DNA from: an uncultured Pelagibacteraceae bacterium
GTDB taxonomy: Bacteria > Pseudomonadota > Alphaproteobacteria > Pelagibacterales > Pelagibacteraceae
Length of the DNA: 64,000 nt
Direction: 5' to 3'
Assembly: GCA_902623395.1 (NCBI GenBank)
Contig: CACNTN010000004.1
Location: 50,313 to 114,312 of the forward strand
This document shows, piece after piece, positions 2,732 through 39,287 of this stretch. The stretch's first letter is position 1, and each line of letters begins with the position of its first letter. A model generated the notes under the pieces. It made no database searches. It saw only the letters and a list, made by a program, of their open reading frames with translations, and had not been told where the DNA came from. The position numbers and the translations under genes are program-made.

Positions 2732-4660
2732 ATGGAAAAATTTTTGTGGGAGCCCTCTAGAAATAAGAAAGAAGAGTCTCTTCTTGAAGATTTCTCAAAA
2801 TTTATAAATCATAAATCAAATTACAATTTTAAAACTTTGTGGAAATGGTCGGTAGATCATCCTGAAGAATTTTGGTCAAAGTTTTGGGACTATTCAAAGA
2901 TTATAGGAGACAAAGGAAAAGAAATAATTAAACTTAATAAAATATTTAATAAGACTAAATTTTTTCCAGACTCAAAATTAAATTATGCTGAAAATATTTT
3001 AAAAAAAAAGTCATTAGATGCTGCAATAAGTTTTTTATCAGAGAAAGGGTTTGAGGAAGAAATTTCTTGGGAACAACTTTACAATAAAGTATGTAAGTTT
3101 TCTAATTACTTAAAATCTATAGGTTTAAAAAAAGGAGACCGTGTAGCAGCTTATGTTCCAAACAAAATTGAGTCTATTATAAGTTTTTTAGCATGTGCAA
3201 AAAATGGAATTATCTGGTCATCATGTTCTCCAGACTTTGGAGTCCAAGGAGTTGTGGATAGATTCAAACAAATTCAACCTAGTATTTTAATTACTAGCGA
3301 TCACTATTTTTATAATGGCAAGAAAATAAATATTCTTGAAAAAATCGAGAATATCTTAAGGGAAATTCCTTCAATTAAAAAAACTTTAGTATTTGCGTAT
3401 AATAAACAAGAGCATGTGAATTTTCAAAATTATATAAACTTCGATGAAGTTTTAAATCAGACAGAAGCAGATGAAAGCTTTGAACGGTTTGAATTTAATC
3501 ATCCTATTTATATTTTATTTTCAAGCGGTACAACTGGAAAACCTAAATGTATAACACATGGAGCCGGAAATGTTTTAATTGAACATAACAAAGAATTTAT
3601 ACTTCATTGTGATATCAGAGATAATGAAAAATTATTTTACTATACTACTACAGGCTGGATGATGTGGAATTGGTTAGTTGGCGGATTAGCAACTGGCTCA
3701 TCTATATTTTTATTTGATGGTGCACCTGTTTATCCAAAAATAGATATCCTTTTAGAGTACTGTCAAAACAAAAAAATTAATCTTTTTGGAGTAAGCGCTA
3801 AATACATCGATCATTTAAAGAATGAAAAATATAGTAGTAAAAACCTAGATCTAAGCTCAATAAAAATAATAACTTCTACAGGCTCTCCCTTAGCTGAGGA
3901 AAGTTTCAAGTATGTATATGACAATATAAAAAAAGATGTTCATCTCGCGTCTATTGCTGGTGGAACAGATTTAGTTGGTTGTTTAGTTTTAGGGAACCTT
4001 TACTCAAATGTATACATGGGAGAAATACAAGGTCAGAGCTTAGGTATTGATGTTGATGTTTTTACGGATGAGGGAAAAAGCGTAAAAGACGGAGAGAAGG
4101 GTGAGTTAGTAGTTAAAAAACCTTTTCCATCTATGCCAATAAAATTTTGGGGAGATGATGATGGACAAAAATATCGTAAAGCTTATTTCAATAAATTTAA
4201 AAATATTTGGCATCATGGTGATTTCATTGAGCGAACTAAAAATAATGGTTTTATCATGAGAGGAAGATCTGACGCTACGTTAAATCCTGGAGGTGTAAGA
4301 ATAGGAACATCAGAAATTTACCAACAAGTTGAAGACATTGATTTTATCACTGAAGGGCTAGTAGTTGGGCAAGATTATAACGATGATGTAAGGATTGTCT
4401 TATTTATTACTACAAAAAACAATCAAGAGTTAGATGATGAAAAAATACAATCAATTAAATCAAGAATAAGAAAAAATTGTTCTCCAAAACATGTTCCTTC
4501 AATAATTATTAAAGTTCCAGAAATCCCTAGGACAAAAAGCGGTAAAATAGTTGAATTAGCGGTTAGAAAAATAATTCATGGAGAAACTATCAATAATAAA
4601 GAGGCAATAGCTAATCCCGAGACTTTAAAATATTTCGAGAATATTCCTCAGCTAAAATAA
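2732..4660 (+). CDS. Acetoacetyl-CoA synthetase (acetoacetate-CoA ligase)
   Basis: 642 aa AMP-forming ligase: ILFSSGTTGKPKCITHGAG, GRSDATLNPGGVRIGTSEIY, PRTKSGKIVELAVRK; N-terminus typical of acetoacetate-CoA ligases. Confidence 0.9.
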   Translation: MEKFLWEPSRNKKEESLLEDFSKFINHKSNYNFKTLWKWSVDHPEEFWSKFWDYSKIIGDKGKEIIKLNKIFNKTKFFPDSKLNYAENILKKKSLDAAISFLSEKGFEEEISWEQLYNKVCKFSNYLKSIGLKKGDRVAAYVPNKIESIISFLACAKNGIIWSSCSPDFGVQGVVDRFKQIQPSILITSDHYFYNGKKINILEKIENILREIPSIKKTLVFAYNKQEHVNFQNYINFDEVLNQTEADESFERFEFNHPIYILFSSGTTGKPKCITHGAGNVLIEHNKEFILHCDIRDNEKLFYYTTTGWMMWNWLVGGLATGSSIFLFDGAPVYPKIDILLEYCQNKKINLFGVSAKYIDHLKNEKYSSKNLDLSSIKIITSTGSPLAEESFKYVYDNIKKDVHLASIAGGTDLVGCLVLGNLYSNVYMGEIQGQSLGIDVDVFTDEGKSVKDGEKGELVVKKPFPSMPIKFWGDDDGQKYRKAYFNKFKNIWHHGDFIERTKNNGFIMRGRSDATLNPGGVRIGTSEIYQQVEDIDFITEGLVVGQDYNDDVRIVLFITTKNNQELDDEKIQSIKSRIRKNCSPKHVPSIIIKVPEIPRTKSGKIVELAVRKIIHGETINNKEAIANPETLKYFENIPQLK

Positions 4661-27118: not shown

Positions 27119-29517
27119 TCATTACAATTCCTTGGCTTAAAGAACATCTTAAAACTTCAGCTAAAGAAAGCGAGATCATCGACCAGCTTACAAATATTGG
27201 ACTTGAAGTTGAAGGTATAAAAGAAAATTCTGGAGAGATGAGTAAGTTCAAAATTGCAAAAGTTTTACGAACGGAAAAACATCCTAATGCTGATAAATTA
27301 AAAGTTTGTGATGTTGCTATTGGCAGAAAAGAGGTTTTAAAAGTTGTCTGCGGAGCACCTAATGCTAGAGAGGGATTAATTACCATTTATGCTCCTCCAG
27401 GAGCAGTGATACCTAAAACTAATTTTGAATTAAAGGTAGCAAAAATAAGAGGCGTAGAGTCCAGAGGGATGCTTTGCTCAGAAAGCGAACTCAATTTATC
27501 AGATGAGAGTGAGGGGATAATTGAACTTAAAAATAAAGAGAAAGAGATAGGAAAAAGTTATTTTAAAAATAATTCACAAAAAGCTATCGATATTTCTATA
27601 ACCCCTAACCGTGCTGATTGTTTAGGCGTTAGAGGTATAGCAAGAGACCTTTCATCAGCAGGTATTGGAAAATTAATACAAACAAAAAGAAAAAAAATTA
27701 AACAAAGCACCTTCCATCAGATTAAAATATCAATTACAAAAGAAAAGAACCAAGGGTGTGATACCTTTGGAAGCTGTTATATTAAAAATATTACTAATAA
27801 AGAAAGCCCCGAATGGCTTAAAAATAAATTAATTGCATTAGGTTTGAAACCCATCTCTGCTGTAGTTGATATTACTAATTATGTAATGTTTGATCTAAAC
27901 AGGCCACTGCATGCTTATGATGCAGATAAAATAAATAAAGAAATTATAGTCAGGAACGCTAAAGAAGGTGAGACATTCGAGGCATTAGATAATAAAAAAT
28001 ATAAATTAAAAAAGGACATGTGTGTTATCTCTGATAAATCCGGCGTTTTAGGTTTGGGCGGAATTATTGGAGGAACAACTACCTCAACTGAATTAGATAC
28101 AAAAAATATACTTTTAGAAGCTGCTTATTTCAGCCCATCCTCAATAAGAAAAACAGCTAGATTACTTAATATTAACACCGATGCGAAATATAGATTTGAG
28201 AGAGGAATTGATCCTAACTCGATCAAAGAGGGTTTAGAGTTTGCTACTGAGCTTATTTTAAAAATTTGTGGAGGAGAAGCCAGCAAGTTTCAAATTACTG
28301 GAAAGACGAAGCAAAAAAATAAGGTTATTAACTTTCAAGTAGAAAAATTTCAAAAATTGATTGGTATTTCAATCACCGCTAATGAAATTGATAAAATTTT
28401 ATCTTCTCTAGGTTTTAAATGTAAAAAAAGTCAAAAAAATATCAAAGTAGAAGTTCCAAGTTGGAGACCAGATGTAAATTTGGATGAAGATTTGATTGAG
28501 GAATTAATTCGGATCAAAGGATTTGATAATATTAAATTAATTGAACCTAGCAAAAATAGAACCCAAGATACTTTAAACTTTAAGCAAAAACTTTTCCATT
28601 TATCACAGAGATCTTTAGCTTCGAAAGGATATATGGAAATAGTAACTTGGTCTTTTACAGATTCAAAAATTGATAAACAATTTTCTAAAGGAGAAAAAGA
28701 AATTCCAATATACAATCCTATTTCTTCTGATCTAGATGTTTTAAGACGATCAATTTTCTCAAATTTAGCAATCTATTTAAAAAAGAACCAAGATAGAGGA
28801 TACGAGGACTTATCTTTATTTGAAATTGGTCCAACATTTTTTGGAAAAAATCCAGGTGAACAACAAGTTGTAGTTGGAGGTTTAAAATCTGGAAAAATAA
28901 ATAGAAAGAGCTGGCTAGATAAAGAAAGAGACGTAGACGTTTTTGATATTAAAAGTGATGTAATTAAAACTTTGATCGAACTTGGAATAGAGGAAAAAAA
29001 TCTTTTTGTGAGCGAAAATACAAAATACAGTTATCATCCAGGCAGATCAGGATCGATAACTTTAAAATCAGAAAAAGGACCTCATCTAGCTTATTTTGGA
29101 GAAATACACCCAGCTATTATTAAAAATTTAGATTTTAAAGACAAAAATATTTTTGGATTTGAGATATTTTTAAAGAATATTCCAGAACCTAACAAAAAAT
29201 TAAGACTTAGCAAAAAAAGTTTTCTAGCTTCAGATTATCAAAAATCAGAAAGAGATTTTGCTTTTATTATTGACAAAATTTTTAAAATTGGTGAACTTGA
29301 GAAGATTGTAAAAGACGTAGATAATAATCTAATTCAAAACGTATCTACGTTTGATGTTTATGAAGGGGAAAATATTCCAAAAGATAAAAAATCAGTTGCT
29401 ATTAATGTAACTTTACAAGCCATCGATAAAACACTTACAGAAAATGATTTAGAGGAAATTAGCAAAAAAATTATTGAAACAGTAAGTAAAAAAACTGGCG
29501 CTACAATTAGGTCCTAA
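27115..29517 (+). CDS. pheT: Phenylalanyl-tRNA synthetase beta subunit
   Basis: 800 aa; B3/B4, B5 and anticodon-binding domains; N-terminal tRNA-binding OB domain. Confidence 0.97.
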
Positions 29518-31325
29518 TGTCAGATATAAAAAGAATACGTAATTTTTCTATAATTGCGCATATTGATCATGGTAAATCAACGATTGCAGATCGTATCATT
29601 CACAAATGTGGAGGTCTTTCTGATCGAGAAATGAAACAACAAGTTCTCGACTCAATGGATATTGAAAGAGAAAGAGGAATTACAATTAAAGCTCAAACTG
29701 TAAAGCTCAACTATAAGGCAAAAGATGGTGAAAATTATATATTAAATATTATCGATACTCCTGGCCACGTAGACTTTGGCTATGAAGTAAGTAGGTCTCT
29801 TTCAGCATGTGAGGGATCTCTTTTAATTGTTGATAGCACTCAAGGCGTAGAGGCTCAAACTTTAGCAAATGTTTATCAAGCTTTAGAGATTAATCATGAA
29901 GTTATACCAATTTTAAACAAAATTGATTTACCCGCTTCAGATATTGAAAAAACAAAAAAAGAAATAGAGGACGTTGTTGGAATTGAGACGGCTAACGCTA
30001 TTTCTTGTTCAGGAAAAACAGGAGAAGGAATTGATGAAATTTTAGAGGCGATTATTAACAAATTACCTGCTCCAAATGGGATTATTGATGAAAAATTAAA
30101 ATGTTTACTAGTTGATAGTTGGTATGACAGTTATCTCGGCGTAGTTATCCTAGTCAGAGTCATTAATGGTAAATTAAAAAAAAATATGAGAGTAAGATTA
30201 ATGTCTAACGATAGAGAATATGTGGTTGAAAAAGTAGGGGTATTCACACCCAAACCAAATGATATTGAAGAATTAAACTCTGGTGAAATTGGATTTATAA
30301 TTACAGGCATTAAATCTCTATTAGAAACAAAAGTTGGCGATACTATTTGTGATGCCAGTGCCCCAATTGACTCACCCCTGCCAGGTTTTAAACCAAGCAA
30401 ACCCGTAGTATTTTGTGGACTGTTCCCTGTCGATAGCTCTGAATATCAAAAATTAAAAGATGGGCTAGCAAAATTAAGACTAAATGATGCAAGTTTTTCA
30501 TACGAACCTGAGTCATCAAGCGCGCTAGGATTGGGTTTTAGGTGTGGTTTTTTAGGTTTACTACATTTAGAAATTATTACCGAGAGGCTTGAAAGGGAGT
30601 TTGATGTTAATTTAATCACAACAACTCCAGGAGTAATCTACAAAGTTCATAAAACTAAAGGTGAAGTTTTAGACTTACAAAATCCGTCAAACATGCCTGA
30701 CCCGTCTCAAATTGAAAAAATAGAAGAACCATGGATTAAATCAACAATTATTACTCCAGATGAATATTTAGGATCGATTATAAAAATTTGTCAGGATAAA
30801 AGAGGTATACAAACTAATTTGAGTTATTCAGGTAAAAGAGCAGTTTTATCATATGACTTGCCGCTTAACGAAGTTGTGTTTGATTTTAATGATAAACTGA
30901 AATCTATTTCTAGTGGATATGCCAGTTTTGATTATGAAATTTCTGGTTATAGGGAAGGGGATTTAGTTAAACTAGGTATCTTAGTAAATTCTGAGTCAGT
31001 TGATGCTTTAGCAATGATTATTCATAAAGATTTTGCACAAACGACAGGTAGACAAGTTTGTGAAAAATTAAAAGATTTAATACCAAGACATAATTTTATG
31101 ATACCGGTTCAAGCTGCAATTGGTGGTAAAATAGTTGCACGAGAGTCCATAAAAGGTTTTAAGAAAGATGTTTTGACGAAAATTCATGGTGGAGGCGCCA
31201 CTGATCGAAAAAGAAAACTCTTAGAAAAACAAAAAAGAGGTAAAGCAAGATCAAAACAATTTGGTAAAGTTGAGATTCCTCAAGAAGCCTTTATTGGAGT
31301 TTTAAAAATAAATAAAGATACATAA
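29517..31325 (+). CDS. lepA: Elongation factor 4
   Basis: 602 aa; [29 protein letters not shown]-terminal [20 protein letters not shown]. Confidence 0.98.
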
Positions 31326-32347
31326 TGAAAAAAAAATTGTTTATTTTCTCCAATGAAAGTATCTCTATCGAAGATAATAAATATTATTGTGATAATTTAG
31401 ATTTAAAATCAACACCTGAAGGTCTAAATAAAAAGTTTGAAGTTAATCTTCTTGGTAGAAAATCAATAAAAAAAAGATCTCATGAAATAAAGATTAAAAG
31501 AGTTAAAGTATTTAATAATATTTTTTCATATTTATCAGAGGTTAAGAGAGCATCAAAGAATAATGATTCTAAATTTTTAATCATTTCAATTTCCCCTTAC
31601 ACTTTTTTTATTTCTCTATTTATCAAAATTTTAGGACGAAAACCTATTGTTTATTTGAGAAGTGACGGCTATGGAGAATACAAGGCGATTCTTGGAAAAA
31701 TCGGTCCAATTTTTTATCATTTTATGTTTAGTATTACTGGGGCAATTTCAAATTTAATTAGTTGTAGAGACTATATTCTTCGAGGGAAAAAAGGAAAAAT
31801 TTTAAGCCCATCCCAACTCGACTCTGTTTGGCTAAGACAACCTAAAAATGGTGAGATTAAAAATTTTAAACTATTATATGTTGGGAGATTAAGAGTAGAA
31901 AAAGGAATCTACGCTCTATCTGAGTTGATTAGGAACAAAAGAGATATTTCATTAACAATAATTGGCGCGGAAACAGGAAGTTCTAATAGAATAAATCAAA
32001 GTAATATTAAAATCCTTCCTACACAAAGTAATAAAACTAAATTAATTAAATATTATGATGATCATAATATTTTTGTTTTACCATCTTTCACAGAGGGTCA
32101 TCCAATGGTTTTACTTGAGGCTCTAGCAAGAAGAAGACCAGTTGTTATTTTTGATGAAATTAAACATGTCATAGGTGATAAAAAAGGAATTTTTGTTACA
32201 AAAAGAAATTTTTTAAGTTTCCTAGGAACTTTAAATAACATTAAAAAAAATTATAAAAAAATTCAAAAAGATATGAAAAAAAATAAACTTCCGACAAACA
32301 AAGAGTTCTTAGAGAAATTTATAAAACTTATAGATGATTTTAATTAA
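31325..32347 (+). CDS. Glycosyltransferase (GT4-like)
   Basis: 340 aa; LLYVGRLRVEKGIYAL, VLPSFTEGHPMVLLEALARRRPVV. Confidence 0.85.
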   Translation: MKKKLFIFSNESISIEDNKYYCDNLDLKSTPEGLNKKFEVNLLGRKSIKKRSHEIKIKRVKVFNNIFSYLSEVKRASKNNDSKFLIISISPYTFFISLFIKILGRKPIVYLRSDGYGEYKAILGKIGPIFYHFMFSITGAISNLISCRDYILRGKKGKILSPSQLDSVWLRQPKNGEIKNFKLLYVGRLRVEKGIYALSELIRNKRDISLTIIGAETGSSNRINQSNIKILPTQSNKTKLIKYYDDHNIFVLPSFTEGHPMVLLEALARRRPVVIFDEIKHVIGDKKGIFVTKRNFLSFLGTLNNIKKNYKKIQKDMKKNKLPTNKEFLEKFIKLIDDFN

Positions 32348-32364
32348 GATAGAAAAATTTAAAA

Positions 32365-33063
32365 ATGAGCAATAAGACATTAGTTTTTACAGCTACTTAT
32401 AATGAGTCAGAAAATATCGAAAAATTTTTAGATATTGCACTCAAAGTTAGAAATATAGACTTGCTTATTATAGATGATAATTCACCTGATTTAACATTTA
32501 AAATAGTGGAAAATTATCAAAAAAAATTTCAAAATTTGTTTCTAATTAAAAGAGACACAAAATTAGGATTAGACACAGCTCATAAACTTAGCTTTGAGTT
32601 CGCAAAGAAAAATAATTATCAAAATCTCATTACACTTGATGCAGACTTATCACATGATCCTAATCAAATTGAAAAATTTATCTCAAATCTTGAAAATTAT
32701 CCTTTTGTAATTGGCTCAAGGTATATTGAGGGTGGTAAAAATAATATGAAATTATCAAGATTATTTTTAAGTTATTTTGGAAATAAATTGATCAAATTTA
32801 TTCTAAAAATTCCTTGTGAAGAATTTACTACATCGTTTAGAGGATTTAATCTCAACAAATTAAATAAATTTAATATTAATAATGTGCAGTCAAGAGGATA
32901 TAGTTTTTTTATGGAAACAATTTATTGGATTGATAAAGCTGGTTATGAAATTAAACAACTACCAATTATTTTTGAAGATAGAGATAAAGGCCGATCAAAA
33001 ATTTCAAAGGTTGAGTCATTTAGAACACTCAAAAATTTATTTATAATTAAAACTAGATATTAA
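32365..33063 (+). CDS. Polyprenol-phosphate glycosyltransferase family 2 (DPM1-like)
   Basis: 232 aa; TATYNESENIEKFL, LIIDDNSPD, TLDADLSHDPNQI, GSRYIEGG. Confidence 0.92.
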   Translation: MSNKTLVFTATYNESENIEKFLDIALKVRNIDLLIIDDNSPDLTFKIVENYQKKFQNLFLIKRDTKLGLDTAHKLSFEFAKKNNYQNLITLDADLSHDPNQIEKFISNLENYPFVIGSRYIEGGKNNMKLSRLFLSYFGNKLIKFILKIPCEEFTTSFRGFNLNKLNKFNINNVQSRGYSFFMETIYWIDKAGYEIKQLPIIFEDRDKGRSKISKVESFRTLKNLFIIKTRY

Positions 33064-34308
33064 ATGAAAAAATTTATGAATGAAAAAAACTATTATCTTG
33101 CAGGTATGGTTTTATATATTTTTTTTTCAATTTCCATTTTTTTTGGTCTTTTAATTAATGAGGATGCATCTGGAAAAGGTACCTCGAATGATTTCAAAAA
33201 TACTTGGGAGTATGTATTATTATTAAAAGAAAATTATTTTATCGATAGCTCTGAGTGGACAAGACTTTTACCTTTTCATTATATTTTTTTGTCAATTCTT
33301 TACGAATTACTAGGAAGTGAATTTTTAGTAAGAGTATTATTTTGCATTTTTTCCCTATTCATACCTTTCATTTTTTATAAAAACTTAAGATTAAAATTTA
33401 AAGATATAAATAAGGGAAAGTTGCTTATTCTAGCTTCTATAATTTTTATTTTACCTTATTTTAGGTCTTCTGCTATTTGGCCCAATCCCCATATTACAGC
33501 AATTTTTTTTTTATTGTTTTCAGTTTATTTTTTTCAGAAATGGTATCAACTTAAAGTAAAGAAAATAAATTTAAACTTTATTTTACATTTAATTTTTTTA
33601 GCATTAACAGTTTATACTAGAAGATATTATGTTTTCTTTTTTCTATATTATTTTTTAATTTATTTTAAATATTTAAATTTTAAAGATTTTGTAATTACCT
33701 CCCTTTTTGTTTTATTGTTGTCTATTCCTGGTTTCATTCTCATTATAAATTTTCCTTTTTATCTAGACTCTACAGGATATAATTTAAAATTTTATAATAC
33801 TTTTTTAATTATAAACTCAATTTTTTTTTTTTATATTATTTCCTTTATAGATTTAGAAACATTGAAATTGAGTAATTTCCGAGCGAAATTGATTTTATGT
33901 TTAAGTATAATTTTGACTATCATATTGTCTTATTTTTTTGATTATGATCCAAAGCTCGGTGGAGGTTATATTATGAAACTTTCAAATATATTTTTAGGAA
34001 GTAATTACCTTTTTTACCTATCTTCAATTTTAGGGTTATATTTGATGAGTAAAACTTTTTTTAACAATAAAAATAGTTCTTTTCTAATAATCTTAATCTT
34101 TTTTATATTTAGCAATAATTATATGTTCCAAAAATATTTTGAGCCATTATGGCTAATAATTTTCTTTCTCATACTAGATTTAAATTTCGTTAAAAAATTT
34201 TTGAGAAGTAATTTTCAAATTTTCATAGTTTTGTTTTATTTTTCAATATATTCTATCACTGCTTTGATAAATAGTTTTTATTCAATCTCTATTAATCACT
34301 TTTGGTAG
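33064..34308 (+). CDS. Polytopic membrane protein, probable glycosyltransferase/mannosyltransferase-like
   Basis: 414 aa with many hydrophobic segments, next to GT2/GT4 genes. Confidence 0.5.
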   Translation: MKKFMNEKNYYLAGMVLYIFFSISIFFGLLINEDASGKGTSNDFKNTWEYVLLLKENYFIDSSEWTRLLPFHYIFLSILYELLGSEFLVRVLFCIFSLFIPFIFYKNLRLKFKDINKGKLLILASIIFILPYFRSSAIWPNPHITAIFFLLFSVYFFQKWYQLKVKKINLNFILHLIFLALTVYTRRYYVFFFLYYFLIYFKYLNFKDFVITSLFVLLLSIPGFILIINFPFYLDSTGYNLKFYNTFLIINSIFFFYIISFIDLETLKLSNFRAKLILCLSIILTIILSYFFDYDPKLGGGYIMKLSNIFLGSNYLFYLSSILGLYLMSKTFFNNKNSSFLIILIFFIFSNNYMFQKYFEPLWLIIFFLILDLNFVKKFLRSNFQIFIVLFYFSIYSITALINSFYSISINHFW

Positions 34309-34324
34309 GTATACATTGTTTTAA

Positions 34325-34414
34325 GGAGAGGTGGCCGAGTGGTTGAAGGCGCACGCTTGGAAAGCGTGTAAACGGGAAACCGTTTCGAGGGTTCGAATCC
34401 CTCTCTCTCCGCCA
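34325..34414 (+). tRNA. tRNA-Ser (anticodon GGA), CCA encoded
   Basis: GGAGAGGTGGCCGAGTGGTTGAAGGCGCACGCTTGGAAAGCGTGTAAACGGGAAACCGTTTCGAGGGTTCGAATCCCTCTCTCTCCGCCA; long variable arm, GGA anticodon. Confidence 0.97.
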
Positions 34415-34479
34415 TTAATTTAACCCAAATAGGACATCGACTACTTTAGTTAGATTTTGATTGATCTATAAATAAATTT

Positions 34480-36291
34480 TTGATGATGAAATTACTTAAA
34501 ATATTTTTAATCTTTATTTATTTGACATCGCTAAGGCAAGTTAACGCTGCCAATATAACAGGCGCCAACACAATAAATAGTGATTCAACTACCCAACAAG
34601 TTTACAATGCAGATGATACTTCATTAACAATCACAAATTCTTCGACTCTTTCAAGAACTGGACAGGCACCAGTTAATATAAATGGAAAGGATGATGGCAC
34701 CTTAACAATAAACTCTGGCTCATCAATTACGGCGACTTCTCATAATACCGTTCAAGGAAAAGACCAGGCTGGGTTAACTGTAACTAACTCAGGAACAATT
34801 AGCTCTGGTGGATCTAAAGCAATTAATTTATTAAATGCTCAGAACTCAACCGTAACTAATAATTCTGGAGGAATAATAAAAAGTAATACTAACACTGTAA
34901 CTCTTACAGAAAATTCAGGAACGGGTAATAATGTAACAATTAATAACTCAGGACAGATCTTTTCCGAAGCTGTTAGCTCAGGAACAACTAATAATAATGC
35001 TGTAAAATCTGAGGACGATACAAACAATATGACTCTTATAAATAATGTTGGGGGCCATATATATAACAATAATTCCTCTGCGACAGCTTTACAACAAGCA
35101 ACAGTTTTTATTGCAGCCGAGGACACCGCAACTTTGACTAACAGTGGAAAAATAGAAAATAAAGCAGGTCCAGAAAATTGGGCTATTGGAATAGCAGGAA
35201 GTGGAGTAACTGTAACTCTTAAAGACGCAGGAAAGGTAATTGGTAAAATTAATGTAGCTGACTCAGGTCATACTATAAGGTTACAACATGGAGCCGGACA
35301 AGCTTACTACTACGACATTACTGGAAATGGCACTTACACTTTGCAAGATTTAGATGGTAATCCAGTTGTTAAAGGTTCAGCAGGATCTATTGGTCAAGGT
35401 GGAAATGAAATGGTAGATGAGGAACTAGGATATAAATCATTAAGCCTAAGAAAATCTCTTACAAGATATCAACAAAGTGATGAATTTTCTGAAAGAGATA
35501 AGGGATGGGGTGAGATCACAACGTCTTTTTTAAAAAGAGATGGAGATAATAGCACTTTAGCACTGGATAACGAAAAAATAGGTATAGGAGCAAATATTTT
35601 TGAACCAATTTCAAATAATAAAACTTTAATTTTGTCTTTTGAAACTAGTTTGCAAAATATTTCCAAAAATCATGACATTAATAAGTTTAGCTTTTTAACA
35701 GGAATGAATTTTGACAAAATTGAAATTAGTGAAGGTGTAAATTCAGAGATATATTTTTTAGGTGGTGCTAGTTTTAATAAAAGTGACAGAAATATTTTAA
35801 CAAATACTACATCAACTGGATTACTAGATATATCTGATGAATATATGAGTTATGAGGCTTTAATTGGAAACAAGATAATTTTTAACAACTTATTACCTGA
35901 TCTAAGTTTTAATTTTGGTTATTCACACACACCGTCTCATGAAGAAAGTAAATTTTACAAGTGGGAAGATAGAGATGTTTATAACGGATCTTTAGCTCTA
36001 AGTAATGAACATCAAATTTTAAAAGATAATAAAAAGAATATCTATTTTTCTTGGATAGCGGATGCCAGAACAATATTAGACGATAATGTGCAAATCTTTT
36101 ATGTAAATGGTACAAAAGGATCTTATACTCAGAACAATGATTTAAAGACTGAATTTAGTTTATCTGCTGGTTTAAATTATAATTACAATTTTTCAAAAAA
36201 TAGTAAATTTTCAATGAGTCTTGATGGACTTCAAACATCCCAAGACACAAGCGGTATTAAAGCAAATTTAAAATATAGTCACAAGTTTTAG
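34480..36291 (+). CDS. Autotransporter-like secreted protein: signal peptide, Ser/Thr/Asn-rich beta-helix-type repeats, C-terminal beta-barrel
   Basis: 603 aa; N-terminal MKLLKIFLIFIYLTSLRQVNAA, repeats of TLTNSGTI/VTNSGGI type, C-terminal barrel-like alternation ending ...NLKYSHKF. Confidence 0.75.
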   Translation: MMMKLLKIFLIFIYLTSLRQVNAANITGANTINSDSTTQQVYNADDTSLTITNSSTLSRTGQAPVNINGKDDGTLTINSGSSITATSHNTVQGKDQAGLTVTNSGTISSGGSKAINLLNAQNSTVTNNSGGIIKSNTNTVTLTENSGTGNNVTINNSGQIFSEAVSSGTTNNNAVKSEDDTNNMTLINNVGGHIYNNNSSATALQQATVFIAAEDTATLTNSGKIENKAGPENWAIGIAGSGVTVTLKDAGKVIGKINVADSGHTIRLQHGAGQAYYYDITGNGTYTLQDLDGNPVVKGSAGSIGQGGNEMVDEELGYKSLSLRKSLTRYQQSDEFSERDKGWGEITTSFLKRDGDNSTLALDNEKIGIGANIFEPISNNKTLILSFETSLQNISKNHDINKFSFLTGMNFDKIEISEGVNSEIYFLGGASFNKSDRNILTNTTSTGLLDISDEYMSYEALIGNKIIFNNLLPDLSFNFGYSHTPSHEESKFYKWEDRDVYNGSLALSNEHQILKDNKKNIYFSWIADARTILDDNVQIFYVNGTKGSYTQNNDLKTEFSLSAGLNYNYNFSKNSKFSMSLDGLQTSQDTSGIKANLKYSHKF

Positions 36292-36295
36292 AGAT

Positions 36296-36357
36296 GCGCA
36301 CGCTTGGAAAGCGTGTAAACGAGTAACCGTTTTGAGGGTTCGAGCCCCTCTCTCCGC
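36296..36357 (+). pseudogene. Partial tRNA-Ser(GGA) copy (anticodon arm to 3' acceptor strand), second att-like repeat
   Basis: GCGCACGCTTGGAAAGCGTGTAAACG identical to 34349-34374, followed by diverged variable arm, T-arm (GAGGG-TTCGAGC-CCCTC) and 3' end; no D-arm or 5' acceptor strand. Confidence 0.85.
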
Positions 36358-36535: not shown

Positions 36536-36751
36536 ATGAAAGCAATCTCAGGATTAACTTCAATGTTTGACAGCTTAACAAAAGTAGTAGTTTCATTACT
36601 TGCGTTAGGTATCGCTGTAAGCCTACTTGGTGGAAACGTTCCATTCGTAGGTGAAATAGCTGGTAACATTATTGGTTTAGTACAATCTTTAGGTGATGCA
36701 GGTATAGTTGGGTTAATCGCAGCTATTATCATCCTAAACTTGTTTAAGTAA
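36536..36751 (+). CDS. 71-aa hydrophobic small membrane protein (paralog 1)
   Basis: MKAISGLTSMFDSLTKVVVSLLALGIAVSLLGGNVPFVGEIAGNIIGLVQSLGDAGIVGLIAAIIILNLFK; GGGGG Shine-Dalgarno-like tract 6 nt upstream. Confidence 0.8.
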   Translation: MKAISGLTSMFDSLTKVVVSLLALGIAVSLLGGNVPFVGEIAGNIIGLVQSLGDAGIVGLIAAIIILNLFK

Positions 36752-36791
36752 TAAACAACTAAGGCTACTTCCCTCGAATTAGCTTTTTAAA

Positions 36792-36823
36792 TAGTCGCCC
36801 TAAGTTTATAGTTAGGGCGGCTA
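36792..36823 (+). repeat. Strong intercistronic hairpin between the two paralogs
   Basis: TAGTCGCCCTAA-gtttatag-TTAGGGCGGCTA, 12-bp stem with one G-T; no U-tract on the + strand. Confidence 0.7.
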
Positions 36824-36839
36824 AAAAAAGGAAAAAATT

Positions 36840-37076
36840 ATGCTAAATTGGGTTTCAACACTAACAAAATATTTAAATAAATTTTTAGAATTAGGAATAT
36901 TGTTATTAGCAGTTTCAGTAATTGCAGAGATTATTTTTGGACCAAATGTAGCTTTTTTTGGTTCTCAAGTAACAAAAAATTTAATTAATTTACTTAATGC
37001 ACTAGGTGAACAAGGAATAGCAGCTTTAATAATAGTCTTTGCTGTAATTTTTGCTTATAGGAAAATATTAAAATAA
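36840..37076 (+). CDS. 78-aa hydrophobic small membrane protein (paralog 2)
   Basis: MLNWVSTLTKYLNKFLELGILLLAVSVIAEIIFGPNVAFFGSQVTKNLINLLNALGEQGIAALIIVFAVIFAYRKILK aligns along its length with 36536-36751. Confidence 0.8.
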   Translation: MLNWVSTLTKYLNKFLELGILLLAVSVIAEIIFGPNVAFFGSQVTKNLINLLNALGEQGIAALIIVFAVIFAYRKILK

Positions 37077-37147
37077 AACTTATTTTAATATCCACATACA
37101 ACTAAAAAGAGTCTTAATTAATTTTTAAGAATCGCTTAAATATACTT

Positions 37148-37182
37148 AGGGCAGTGGAGGGAGACTGAAGCTGCCTTTTTTA
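37148..37182 (+). terminator. Rho-independent terminator for the small-protein pair
   Basis: GGCAG...CTGCC stem followed by TTTTTT. Confidence 0.6.
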
Positions 37183-37183
37183 T

Positions 37184-37921
37184 TTATAGCCTTTTAATTC
37201 CTATCACCTTTAGTTTTGCAGTTCGGGCTATTAAATCTATGGTTTGATTTATTTCCATTATCACTGTTTTCTTCATAGGACCATAAGCATGAATTAGTTT
37301 TTGCTTTGAAAGAGCCACTGCTACATGGCCATTCCAATAAATAATATCATTTTTTTTTATATTTTTTAATTTTATGTTTTTTTTGAAATATTTGACTTGA
37401 TCCTTGGCATCTCTTGGGCAAAATTTATTATTAAAATTTAAAAATACTTGCACAAGCGCTGAACAGTCAATTCCTTTAAAAGATTTGCCACCCCATTTAT
37501 ACTTAACATCTTTAAATGAAGTTATCCTTTTAAAGGGATTTTTTTCTTTAAAAGAAATAGGTTTTACATCTGATTTATTAATCCACCCATTAGCAATTTT
37601 TAAAAATTTTGAATTATTTCCTATAACTCTTATTTTAGAACCGTACGTAATTTCATTCTTTTTAACTTTATTAGGAAATTTAAAAATTTTTGCTTTTAAA
37701 CAATTTACTTTATGAGTTGGTTTTAAAAAATTAGAATATTTTTTATTTTTAATGTATCCTTTATAATTATCTTCTTTAATTTTTATTTTAAGCCATTTTT
37801 TTGATTTTTTAAAAATTGAAAAACTATCTCCGTATATCATCTGAGTTATAGTTTCAGATTTAGTAGAAGGTTTTTTATAAAGATTTATTTCTGGATAGAT
37901 ATTAGTGAAATATTTAGTCAT
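37184..37921 (-). CDS. NlpC/P60 family peptidoglycan hydrolase with bacterial SH3 domains
   Basis: 245 aa; KWGGKSFKGIDCSALVQVFL, NDIIYWNGHVAVALS, HAYGPMKKTVI. Confidence 0.9.
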   Translation of the reverse strand: MTKYFTNIYPEINLYKKPSTKSETITQMIYGDSFSIFKKSKKWLKIKIKEDNYKGYIKNKKYSNFLKPTHKVNCLKAKIFKFPNKVKKNEITYGSKIRVIGNNSKFLKIANGWINKSDVKPISFKEKNPFKRITSFKDVKYKWGGKSFKGIDCSALVQVFLNFNNKFCPRDAKDQVKYFKKNIKLKNIKKNDIIYWNGHVAVALSKQKLIHAYGPMKKTVIMEINQTIDLIARTAKLKVIGIKRL

Positions 37922-39287
37922 TCAACTTTAGTTTATCTTTAATTATGTAAAGAAAGATAAGAGATGGTATTACCATTACGGCAGTAAGTATAAAAAATAT
38001 ACCCCAATCTCCATTTAGCCAATCAACTAAAGCTCCTGATGAAGCTGCTAATGTAGTTCTCCCAGCTGTTCCAATTGATGAAAGAAGTGCGTACTGAGTA
38101 GCAGTGTAGGTCCTGTCAACTAACATAGAAATAAATGCAACAAATGCTACAGTAGCAAAGGCTGCTGCCATATCATCAAATATAACAGCTAATGCAAATA
38201 ATAATTCTGATTTTCCTGACCAAGCTAATAGAGAAAATAAAAGATTGGTGGAGGCCATTAATATACCAGATACAAACATTGCTTTAATTACCCCGGAGCG
38301 AATTGCAAACAAACCTCCCAATAAAGTAAAAATTACTGTTGTTATCCATCCCAATCCTTTTGAGTAAAGAGCTATATCAGATTTAGTAAATCCAATTTCT
38401 TTGTAAAATATTACCGACATTCTTCCTAAAAAAGCCTCTCCTATTTTAAAAAGAAAAACAAATCCTAAAATTCCTAAAGCGATTTTGAAACCATTTTTTT
38501 TAAAAAAACTCATCACAGGACCAATTATTGTCCCAGTCAACCAAGCAAGAGTTTTTGCAATTAAATTTGAAGAACCAAGCTTATCTTGTATCATTTTGTC
38601 AGTCTGTTTCTGTTTTTCAGCTCTATCAATAGGCTGGGGTTCTTTTATAAATAGAAGACCAATATTGCAGGCTATAATTATTATACCCAAGATTAAAAAA
38701 GTGATTTGCCAATAGTTTTCAAAACCTGCATTTTCAAAAAATTCTGCTGCATTAAGAGCAACAACTCCACCCAGTTTATAACCTGTCCACCATCCAACAA
38801 CAGCCATCGCAGCACCAGCTTGCATTGATCTGCCCTCATGTTCACCAATCTGTTCTATTCTTAATGCATCAACAGTAATATCTTGAGTAGCTGAAGCGAT
38901 GGCAATAATAAGTCCTACAGTTATCACTAGCGCTAAATTTGTAGTTGGATTAATCAAGCTCCAACAAACAAGACAAAGTATTATCAACGTTTGCATAGTA
39001 ATAATCCAACCTCGTCTATGTCCGACTTTAGCTGTAAGCCATGGAATTCTTATTCTGTCGATAATTGGAGCCCATAAGTAATTAAAAGCGTAAACAGCAA
39101 AAATTAGTCCAGCCCATCCAATAGTACTTCTACTTAGTCCATCTTCTTTTAACCAAAGACTTAAGCTGCTTCCAATTATAACCCAAGGAAAACCACTAAT
39201 GGCGCCAAGTAATAATATTTTGATCATTCTACGATCAAAATAAACAGAAAAAGTTTCTGCAAAAGTTTGTTTTTTATAAATTTCCAT
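37914..39287 (-). CDS. AmpG-family muropeptide MFS transporter
   Basis: 457 aa; GFPWVIIGSSLSLWLKEDGLSRSTIGW, ATQDITVDALRIE. Confidence 0.88.
   Translation of the reverse strand: MEIYKKQTFAETFSVYFDRRMIKILLLGAISGFPWVIIGSSLSLWLKEDGLSRSTIGWAGLIFAVYAFNYLWAPIIDRIRIPWLTAKVGHRRGWIITMQTLIILCLVCWSLINPTTNLALVITVGLIIAIASATQDITVDALRIEQIGEHEGRSMQAGAAMAVVGWWTGYKLGGVVALNAAEFFENAGFENYWQITFLILGIIIIACNIGLLFIKEPQPIDRAEKQKQTDKMIQDKLGSSNLIAKTLAWLTGTIIGPVMSFFKKNGFKIALGILGFVFLFKIGEAFLGRMSVIFYKEIGFTKSDIALYSKGLGWITTVIFTLLGGLFAIRSGVIKAMFVSGILMASTNLLFSLLAWSGKSELLFALAVIFDDMAAAFATVAFVAFISMLVDRTYTATQYALLSSIGTAGRTTLAASSGALVDWLNGDWGIFFILTAVMVIPSLIFLYIIKDKLKLND

Follow-up and report, generated by a model that had tools for sequence, protein, structure and literature searches.

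In 'Ca. Actinomarinales', flexible genomic islands are additive, and tell-tale tRNA repeats mark the ends of the small cassettes inserted there (PMC7771536). In 'Ca. Methylopumilus', the recurring repeat corresponds to the last 20 nt of tRNA-Lys and the islands range from 330 bp to 42 kb; tycheposons, known from Prochlorococcus and reported also in Methylophilaceae, are described as spanning 4-200 kb and carrying a tyrosine recombinase (PMC10872708). In SAR11, HVR1 of HTCC1062 has autotransporters and HVR2 an integrase gene, and no attC sites are reported in the HVRs (PMC2217521). The locus considered here lies between lepA and an NlpC/P60 gene in a 64,000-nt stretch of a Pelagibacteraceae contig (the window), and we found no description of this lepA/tRNA-Ser locus or its tRNA-fragment cassettes in the literature searched, which covered few subscription journals. 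Our preferred explanation, to which we give a probability of roughly 0.78, is that the tRNA-Ser gene acts as an attB for recombinase-free cassettes that are mobilized in trans and later erode. The features of the window on which the argument depends are as follows.

29517..31325, + strand: lepA, left anchor of the conserved frame (located in 54 of 61 genus genomes)
34325..34414, + strand: intact tRNA-Ser(GGA), the putative attachment site (ARAGORN)
34341-34414, + strand: tRNA positions 17-90, the segment repeated at cassette ends (fragments in relatives match 17-90)
34486..36291, + strand: cargo gene for an autotransporter-like protein of 601 aa (ATG start at 34486; 603 aa from a TTG at 34480)
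36296..36354, + strand: degenerate, presumably displaced tRNA 3' fragment, tRNA positions 25-83 (5 mismatches in 59)
36536..36751, + strand: small hydrophobic protein of 71 aa, gene 1 of a probably older two-gene module (from the sequence and relatives)
36840..37076, + strand: small hydrophobic protein of 78 aa (paralogue), gene 2 of the module (from the sequence)
37089..37183, no strand: conserved chromosomal flank, which adjoins the tRNA directly in empty sites
37184..37921, - strand: NlpC/P60 gene, right anchor (PF00877)
37914..39287, - strand: MFS transporter gene, right anchor (located in 54 of 61 genus genomes)

The 26-nt sequence GCGCACGCTTGGAAAGCGTGTAAACG occurs at 34349-34374, inside the tRNA-Ser gene, and again at 36296-36321 (chance expectation 0.00); both copies reported in an earlier note on this DNA were recovered, and the window contains no third copy with up to 3 mismatches allowed. 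The stretch 36296-36354 aligns to tRNA positions 25-83 (91.5% over 59 nt, E 2e-18), keeping the variable arm, the T-arm and most of the 3' acceptor and having lost the D-arm and 5' acceptor, in agreement with its description as a partial tRNA lacking the 5' part. The genome's other tRNA-Ser match is at a separate place on contig C3 and is 77% alike. A single sizeable gene, an ORF of 601-603 aa, lies between the repeats and its stop codon (36289-36291) is 4 nt ahead of the remnant, again as first noted. The AlphaFold model of its product (mean pLDDT 63) predicts a signal helix, short-strand repeats and a C-terminal barrel, and the top PDB matches of the model are the autotransporters EstA and EspP (E ~3e-5, low TM), but the protein matches no Pfam or NCBIfam family; the original label 'autotransporter-like' (AT) is supported by predicted fold only, which is compatible with the classical (type Va) architecture of signal peptide, beta-helical passenger and 12-strand C-terminal barrel. 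The AT c1 family is present in 24 loci. Approximately 730 nt with the two small genes (71 and 78 aa, neither protein with a Pfam family) lie between the remnant and the flank at ~37089. The islet bounded by tRNA and remnant, as initially proposed, is therefore correct in that the repeats bracket the AT gene, but the variable interval extends further, to ~37089. The two-small-gene module (36536-37076) is up to 98-99% conserved at the amino acid level and is found directly behind the tRNA in several genomes.

For comparison, lepA and the MFS gene were located across 61 genomes of the genus, and the stretches studied come from them as well as from 76 others; the sample holds one genome per species and consists of drafts only. 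The gene order is conserved: lepA, usually glycosyltransferase genes, tRNA-Ser(GGA), a variable interval, NlpC/P60 and MFS. We counted 121 same-genus loci having both the tRNA and NlpC (the window and 120 others) and scored a site as empty when fewer than 150 nt separate the tRNA end from the NlpC stop. By this definition 51 of the 121 sites are empty, with a recognizable conserved flank as their spacer (TATCCACATACAAC..AAGAGTCTTAA..GGGCAGTGGAGGGAGACTGAAGCTGCC), and 70, window included, are filled, with intervals of 174 nt to 8.4 kb and many alternative cargos. The loci do not show the purely vertical divergence, with neither empty sites nor alternative cargo, that the earlier note had named as the pattern at odds with an islet. 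A tRNA fragment covering positions 17-90 (in one case 19-90) and 96-100% identical is held by 21 loci besides the window, and in 11 of them the last fragment abuts the empty-site flank, at 105-156 nt from NlpC. A recognizable fragment is missing from 50 of the 70 filled loci, which indicates that other routes (homologous recombination) also act or that fragments are often lost. The stretch between lepA and the tRNA (31325-34308 in the window; equivalents in L027-L081) is itself variable, with differing sets of glycosyltransferase and membrane-protein genes, so that the glycan genes and the tRNA cassettes together make up a composite variable region.

The fragment-bounded units contain one or two genes each; counted from the tRNA end or the preceding fragment, they are 514-2074 bp long. 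The fragment boundary (17 or 19 to 90) is uniform behind different cargos. The cargo includes autotransporter-like genes, a trypsin-like lipoprotein (c9, PF13365) and a DUF2846 lipoprotein (c47); short cargo (c32/33, c39, c40/41, c51 and c56) whose N-termini look signal-like or lipobox-like by eye; c26, which is weakly nucleotidyltransferase-like at a score below cut-off; and, in L077, a homologue of methyl-directed type II restriction enzymes together with a second gene (c42/c43). PADLOC matches this homologue to mREase_II (E 1e-30), a defense-type cargo that lies with the second gene at 54-1242 nt past the tRNA end of L077 (lepA-left orientation). Among the cargo proteins scanned, which are a part of all cargo, no phage or satellite hallmark gene was recognized between the repeats. 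Units also stack: L063 has two fragments in tandem, further cargo lies beyond the first fragment in L027, L032, L042, L070, L071, L077 and L092, and the GT unit that is directly behind the tRNA in L059 sits behind an AT gene and fragment in L092. What is repeated between tandem units is the tRNA 3' segment, and an Rfam scan of four loci returned the tRNA alone and nothing else.

Units with different cargos have their ends in common as well. In fifteen distinct right ends, the ~75 nt that precede the fragment are alike (consensus ..TGACTCCGYATGGNCGTCAGYAGCTCAACTTTTTTAAAATTTG..CTAATCAATAAYTCTAGAAGGCTA|GGTTGAAGG), with a mean ungapped identity of 60% versus 29% when shuffled; TTTTTTAAAG.TCTTGCACAACCT..TAAAAT..TTTGGTCGTCATATGGGCGTCA is common to most left ends. 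GGTCGTC-type repeats are located at +42/+53 after the tRNA and at -86/-75 before the fragment; a lag of 11 scores best for 16 of the 19 distinct left ends and, with weaker scores, for 11 of the 19 right ends. Left and right arms match better within an element than when swapped (p 0.0005, with a statistic that ignores cassette relatedness). These end repeats resemble the attP arms of tyrosine integrases, and in a circular cassette the right arm, 74-nt core and left arm would together make an attP some 220 bp long. The left end has a promoter-like look too, and several cassettes have an ORF starting inside it (MIWSSYGRQQMKK..), so expression may account for a part of what is shared; the left-end repeats overlap this possibly translated leader, and some of the conservation of the ends may reflect expression. 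When 169 genomes were queried with a right end, strong matches appeared only beside fragments at this tRNA-Ser, and the exact end pattern, searched over a collection of 85,488 species, was found at 11 loci, all in Pelagibacteraceae. Run against all fetched loci, the right-end profile matched strongly only cassettes at this tRNA-Ser, and we thus saw no second docking site.

Outside the genus, in a draw of 298 genomes of the order, the segment was present in two or three copies in members of genera g3 and g6 and of family f2. In G382 (g6) and in G306 and G413 (g3), units have 11-bp-spaced repeats at corresponding positions and left and right arms that match within the element; the arm sequences differ from those of the genus, being TGCCGTC in G382 and TTGTCGTC in G413. 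In G413 and G235, lepA is directly upstream of the tRNA. Judging from the sequences, cassettes of this type appear to be a recurring, order-wide family in Pelagibacterales with shared ends, and the islet reading, which is supported, has to be enlarged from a lone islet to one member of this family.

Cargo has spread between genomes. AT genes with DNA identities of 99.7% and 99.1% occur in genomes with MFS flank identities of 77.8% and 78.8%, respectively, and near-identical AT genes beside flanks of ~78% mean that AT genes moved horizontally. Across AT pairs, AT and MFS identity are unrelated (r = -0.07); cargo and flanks diverge independently, which supports the earlier suggestion that a surface protein is exchanged at the tRNA. 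For the window's AT type the transfer signal is weaker than for other AT types (AT 0.79-0.89 versus flanks 0.77-0.84). The loci with lepA most similar to that of the window (L103, L147, L031, L113 and L034) have no AT gene, and in L142, L103, L087, L148 and L101 the two-small-gene module follows the tRNA with nothing in between. From the 3' end of the remnant onward, the window aligns with the latter five and therefore corresponds to their pre-insertion state plus AT gene and fragment. The window copy shows no end arms: it has neither the right arm (~95 nt in the AT cassettes of L029 and L051) nor the first 8 nt of the fragment, and the remnant carries five substitutions. Comparable loss is seen in L041, L064, L128, L099 and L107, which have an AT gene and no fragment before the flank; L029 and L072 retain both arm and fragment. 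We infer that the window copy is an old docking, a decayed member of the family that eroded after insertion. Since the window's AT type was never seen with arms, it is the remnant that points to its delivery as a cassette, and insertion of this AT type by a route other than cassette docking is possible. In L094, a start like that of the window's AT type is directly behind a fragment.

A plausible scenario for the locus as a whole is that: (i) the tRNA-Ser(GGA) between lepA and the NlpC/P60 gene would act as the chromosomal attB; (ii) a cassette, made up of an attP-like region and one or two genes and encoding no recombinase, would insert by site-specific recombination with a tyrosine recombinase supplied from elsewhere; (iii) the crossover would presumably fall in the anticodon arm (CACGCTT-GGA-AAGCGTG), where we place it from general knowledge of tRNA-targeting integrases; (iv) the cassette would bring its own copy of tRNA 17-90, which would keep the tRNA whole, and the 3' part that it displaces would stay at the far end; (v) each new cassette would come in next to the tRNA and shift its predecessors outward, so that tandem arrays build up; and (vi) deletions would wear away the distal arm and fragment, leaving the cargo trapped. 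The window would then hold one such trapped cassette (AT gene and remnant) in front of the older two-small-gene module. Sequence comparison thus suggests that cassettes are exchanged at the tRNA-Ser by addition, stacking, swap and loss.

With regard to the recombinase acting in trans, there are two candidate helpers, and we favor the integrase of a visiting phage or satellite over a resident recombinase. The locus had been called integrase-less, and there is indeed no PF00589 match on the stretch studied, with 101 draft genomes searched; in these incomplete drafts, 74 of the 101 have PF00589 matches, mostly one per genome. A phage-type helper is a plausible class, and we give the integrase of a temperate phage or satellite using the same tRNA-Ser site slightly less than an even chance. 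Our reasoning is that two IMG/VR contigs, L213 (IMGVR_UViG_3300010153_000056, 3228-4245) and L217 (588-1582), have tail-like genes and, next to a tRNA-Ser(GGA) segment, an integrase (307 and 303 aa, respectively), and that the segment in L213 (positions 29-88) has ACTTGCC repeats ~10 bp apart on both sides. Consistent with this idea, other integrases of the genus sit at other tRNAs, six additional ones being near tRNA-Leu(TAG) (twice), Glu, Met, Val and Leu(CAA). However, L213 and L217 are viral contigs with no SAR11 host link, and neither their tRNA segment nor their arms are the same as in SAR11; when relatives of their integrase were searched for, just those two were returned. Searches of a phage collection and IMG/VR with the tRNA core (64, 48 and 30 nt; megablast), the arm motif and the AT protein yielded no SAR11-type carrier. 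A 21-nt core matched nine viral contigs: six are phages with tRNA arrays, L218 has a full tRNA-Ser and no integrase detected, and the remaining two are L213 and L217. In L158 (7339-8799) and L159 (6877-8497), a prophage-like stretch has an integrase abutting tRNA-Leu(TAG), and L159 has this tRNA-Leu in two copies.

We consider it rather doubtful that the helper is the resident tyrosine recombinase of 304-318 aa, acting in trans in an integron-like manner from beside another glycan region. This protein, the common recombinase of these genomes, is encoded beside glycan genes and scores far below the XerC/XerD cut-offs, which counts in its favor, as does the recurrence of the right-end motif ATCAATAATTCTA ~1 kb upstream of its gene, a suggestive motif only. 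It is the sole PF00589 protein in most of the genomes in which we recorded it (L164, 3199-4152, and L186-L205), and canonical XerC/XerD were not seen in these draft genomes. Also in its favor, TCAATAAYTCTANRAG matches in only 9 of 61 genomes, and five of the eight non-cassette matches are the site upstream of the recombinase gene. On the other hand, these matches represent a single orthologous site that was noticed post hoc, the right-end profile as a whole finds no match there, and the protein has SAM-like and catalytic domains only, with no evident arm-binding extension. The recombinase is also near-universal, which leaves nothing with which the occurrence of cassettes could be correlated. 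We are similarly doubtful of a broader proposal, namely an order-wide integron-like system in which 'attP plus one gene' cassettes at a single tRNA-Ser, with the recombinase elsewhere (possibly a resident non-Xer one), would swap surface, lipoprotein and defense genes singly.

Somewhat less likely again is a scenario in which no recombinase acts now and old cassettes are exchanged by homologous recombination after DNA uptake, with lepA, the 74-nt repeats and NlpC/MFS as anchors. The lack of an integrase at the locus, the many filled loci without fragments and the variability of the lepA-tRNA stretch all agree with such exchange, and identical repeats of 74 nt are long enough for some of it. 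It is harder to reconcile with near-identical AT cassettes whose flanks are just 78% identical, as the tracts would have to end inside the tRNA copies, with a fragment boundary and end arms that are uniform over unrelated cargo, or with paired arm repeats that co-vary. Vertical inheritance, with a chance partial duplication of the tRNA next to an old AT gene, is contradicted for the locus by empty sites, alternative cargo, tandem arrays and incongruent divergence, and the degenerate state of the remnant (92%) and the occurrence of its AT type in few loci leave it remotely conceivable for the window copy only.

SAR11 are the most abundant bacteria in the ocean and have extremely reduced genomes with few mobile elements. 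The proposed docking of cassettes at a tRNA gene bears on how SAR11 acquires and swaps niche genes, which is an open question. For other streamlined lineages, the literature compared invokes tRNA cassettes without a defined element structure; the SAR11 cassette is a defined element, with core, arms, cargo and an empty site, and comes with a short list of candidate recombinases. The tRNA-Ser site may also be of use in SAR11 genetics, as a compact natural site for insertions.

The SAR11 HVRs, like the lepA/tRNA-Ser locus, are variable and rich in surface genes. Tycheposons resemble the SAR11 cassettes in being cargo-bearing integrative elements at tRNA genes in ocean bacteria, but the SAR11 units, at 0.5-2.1 kb, are ten times smaller and encode no tyrosine recombinase. 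There is also a likeness to integron cassettes, in that both are single-gene units in a tandem array at one site with a recombinase encoded, for SAR11 presumably, outside the cassette. However, the SAR11 repeat is a tRNA 3' segment instead of an attC, the newest unit would enter at the tRNA gene, and the PF00589 search and cargo inventory revealed no integron integrase beside the array at this locus. The additive islands of Actinomarinales and Methylopumilus share with the SAR11 cassettes a streamlined aquatic host and variable, additive content, and differ from them in that the SAR11 units are of one or two genes and 0.5-2.1 kb, with a fixed-boundary 74-nt repeat, common end sequences that carry 11-bp-spaced repeats, and an empty site that has been mapped. 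The SAR11 cassettes are thus of the same kind as the additive cassettes of Actinomarinales, but minimal, integrase-less and with defined ends.
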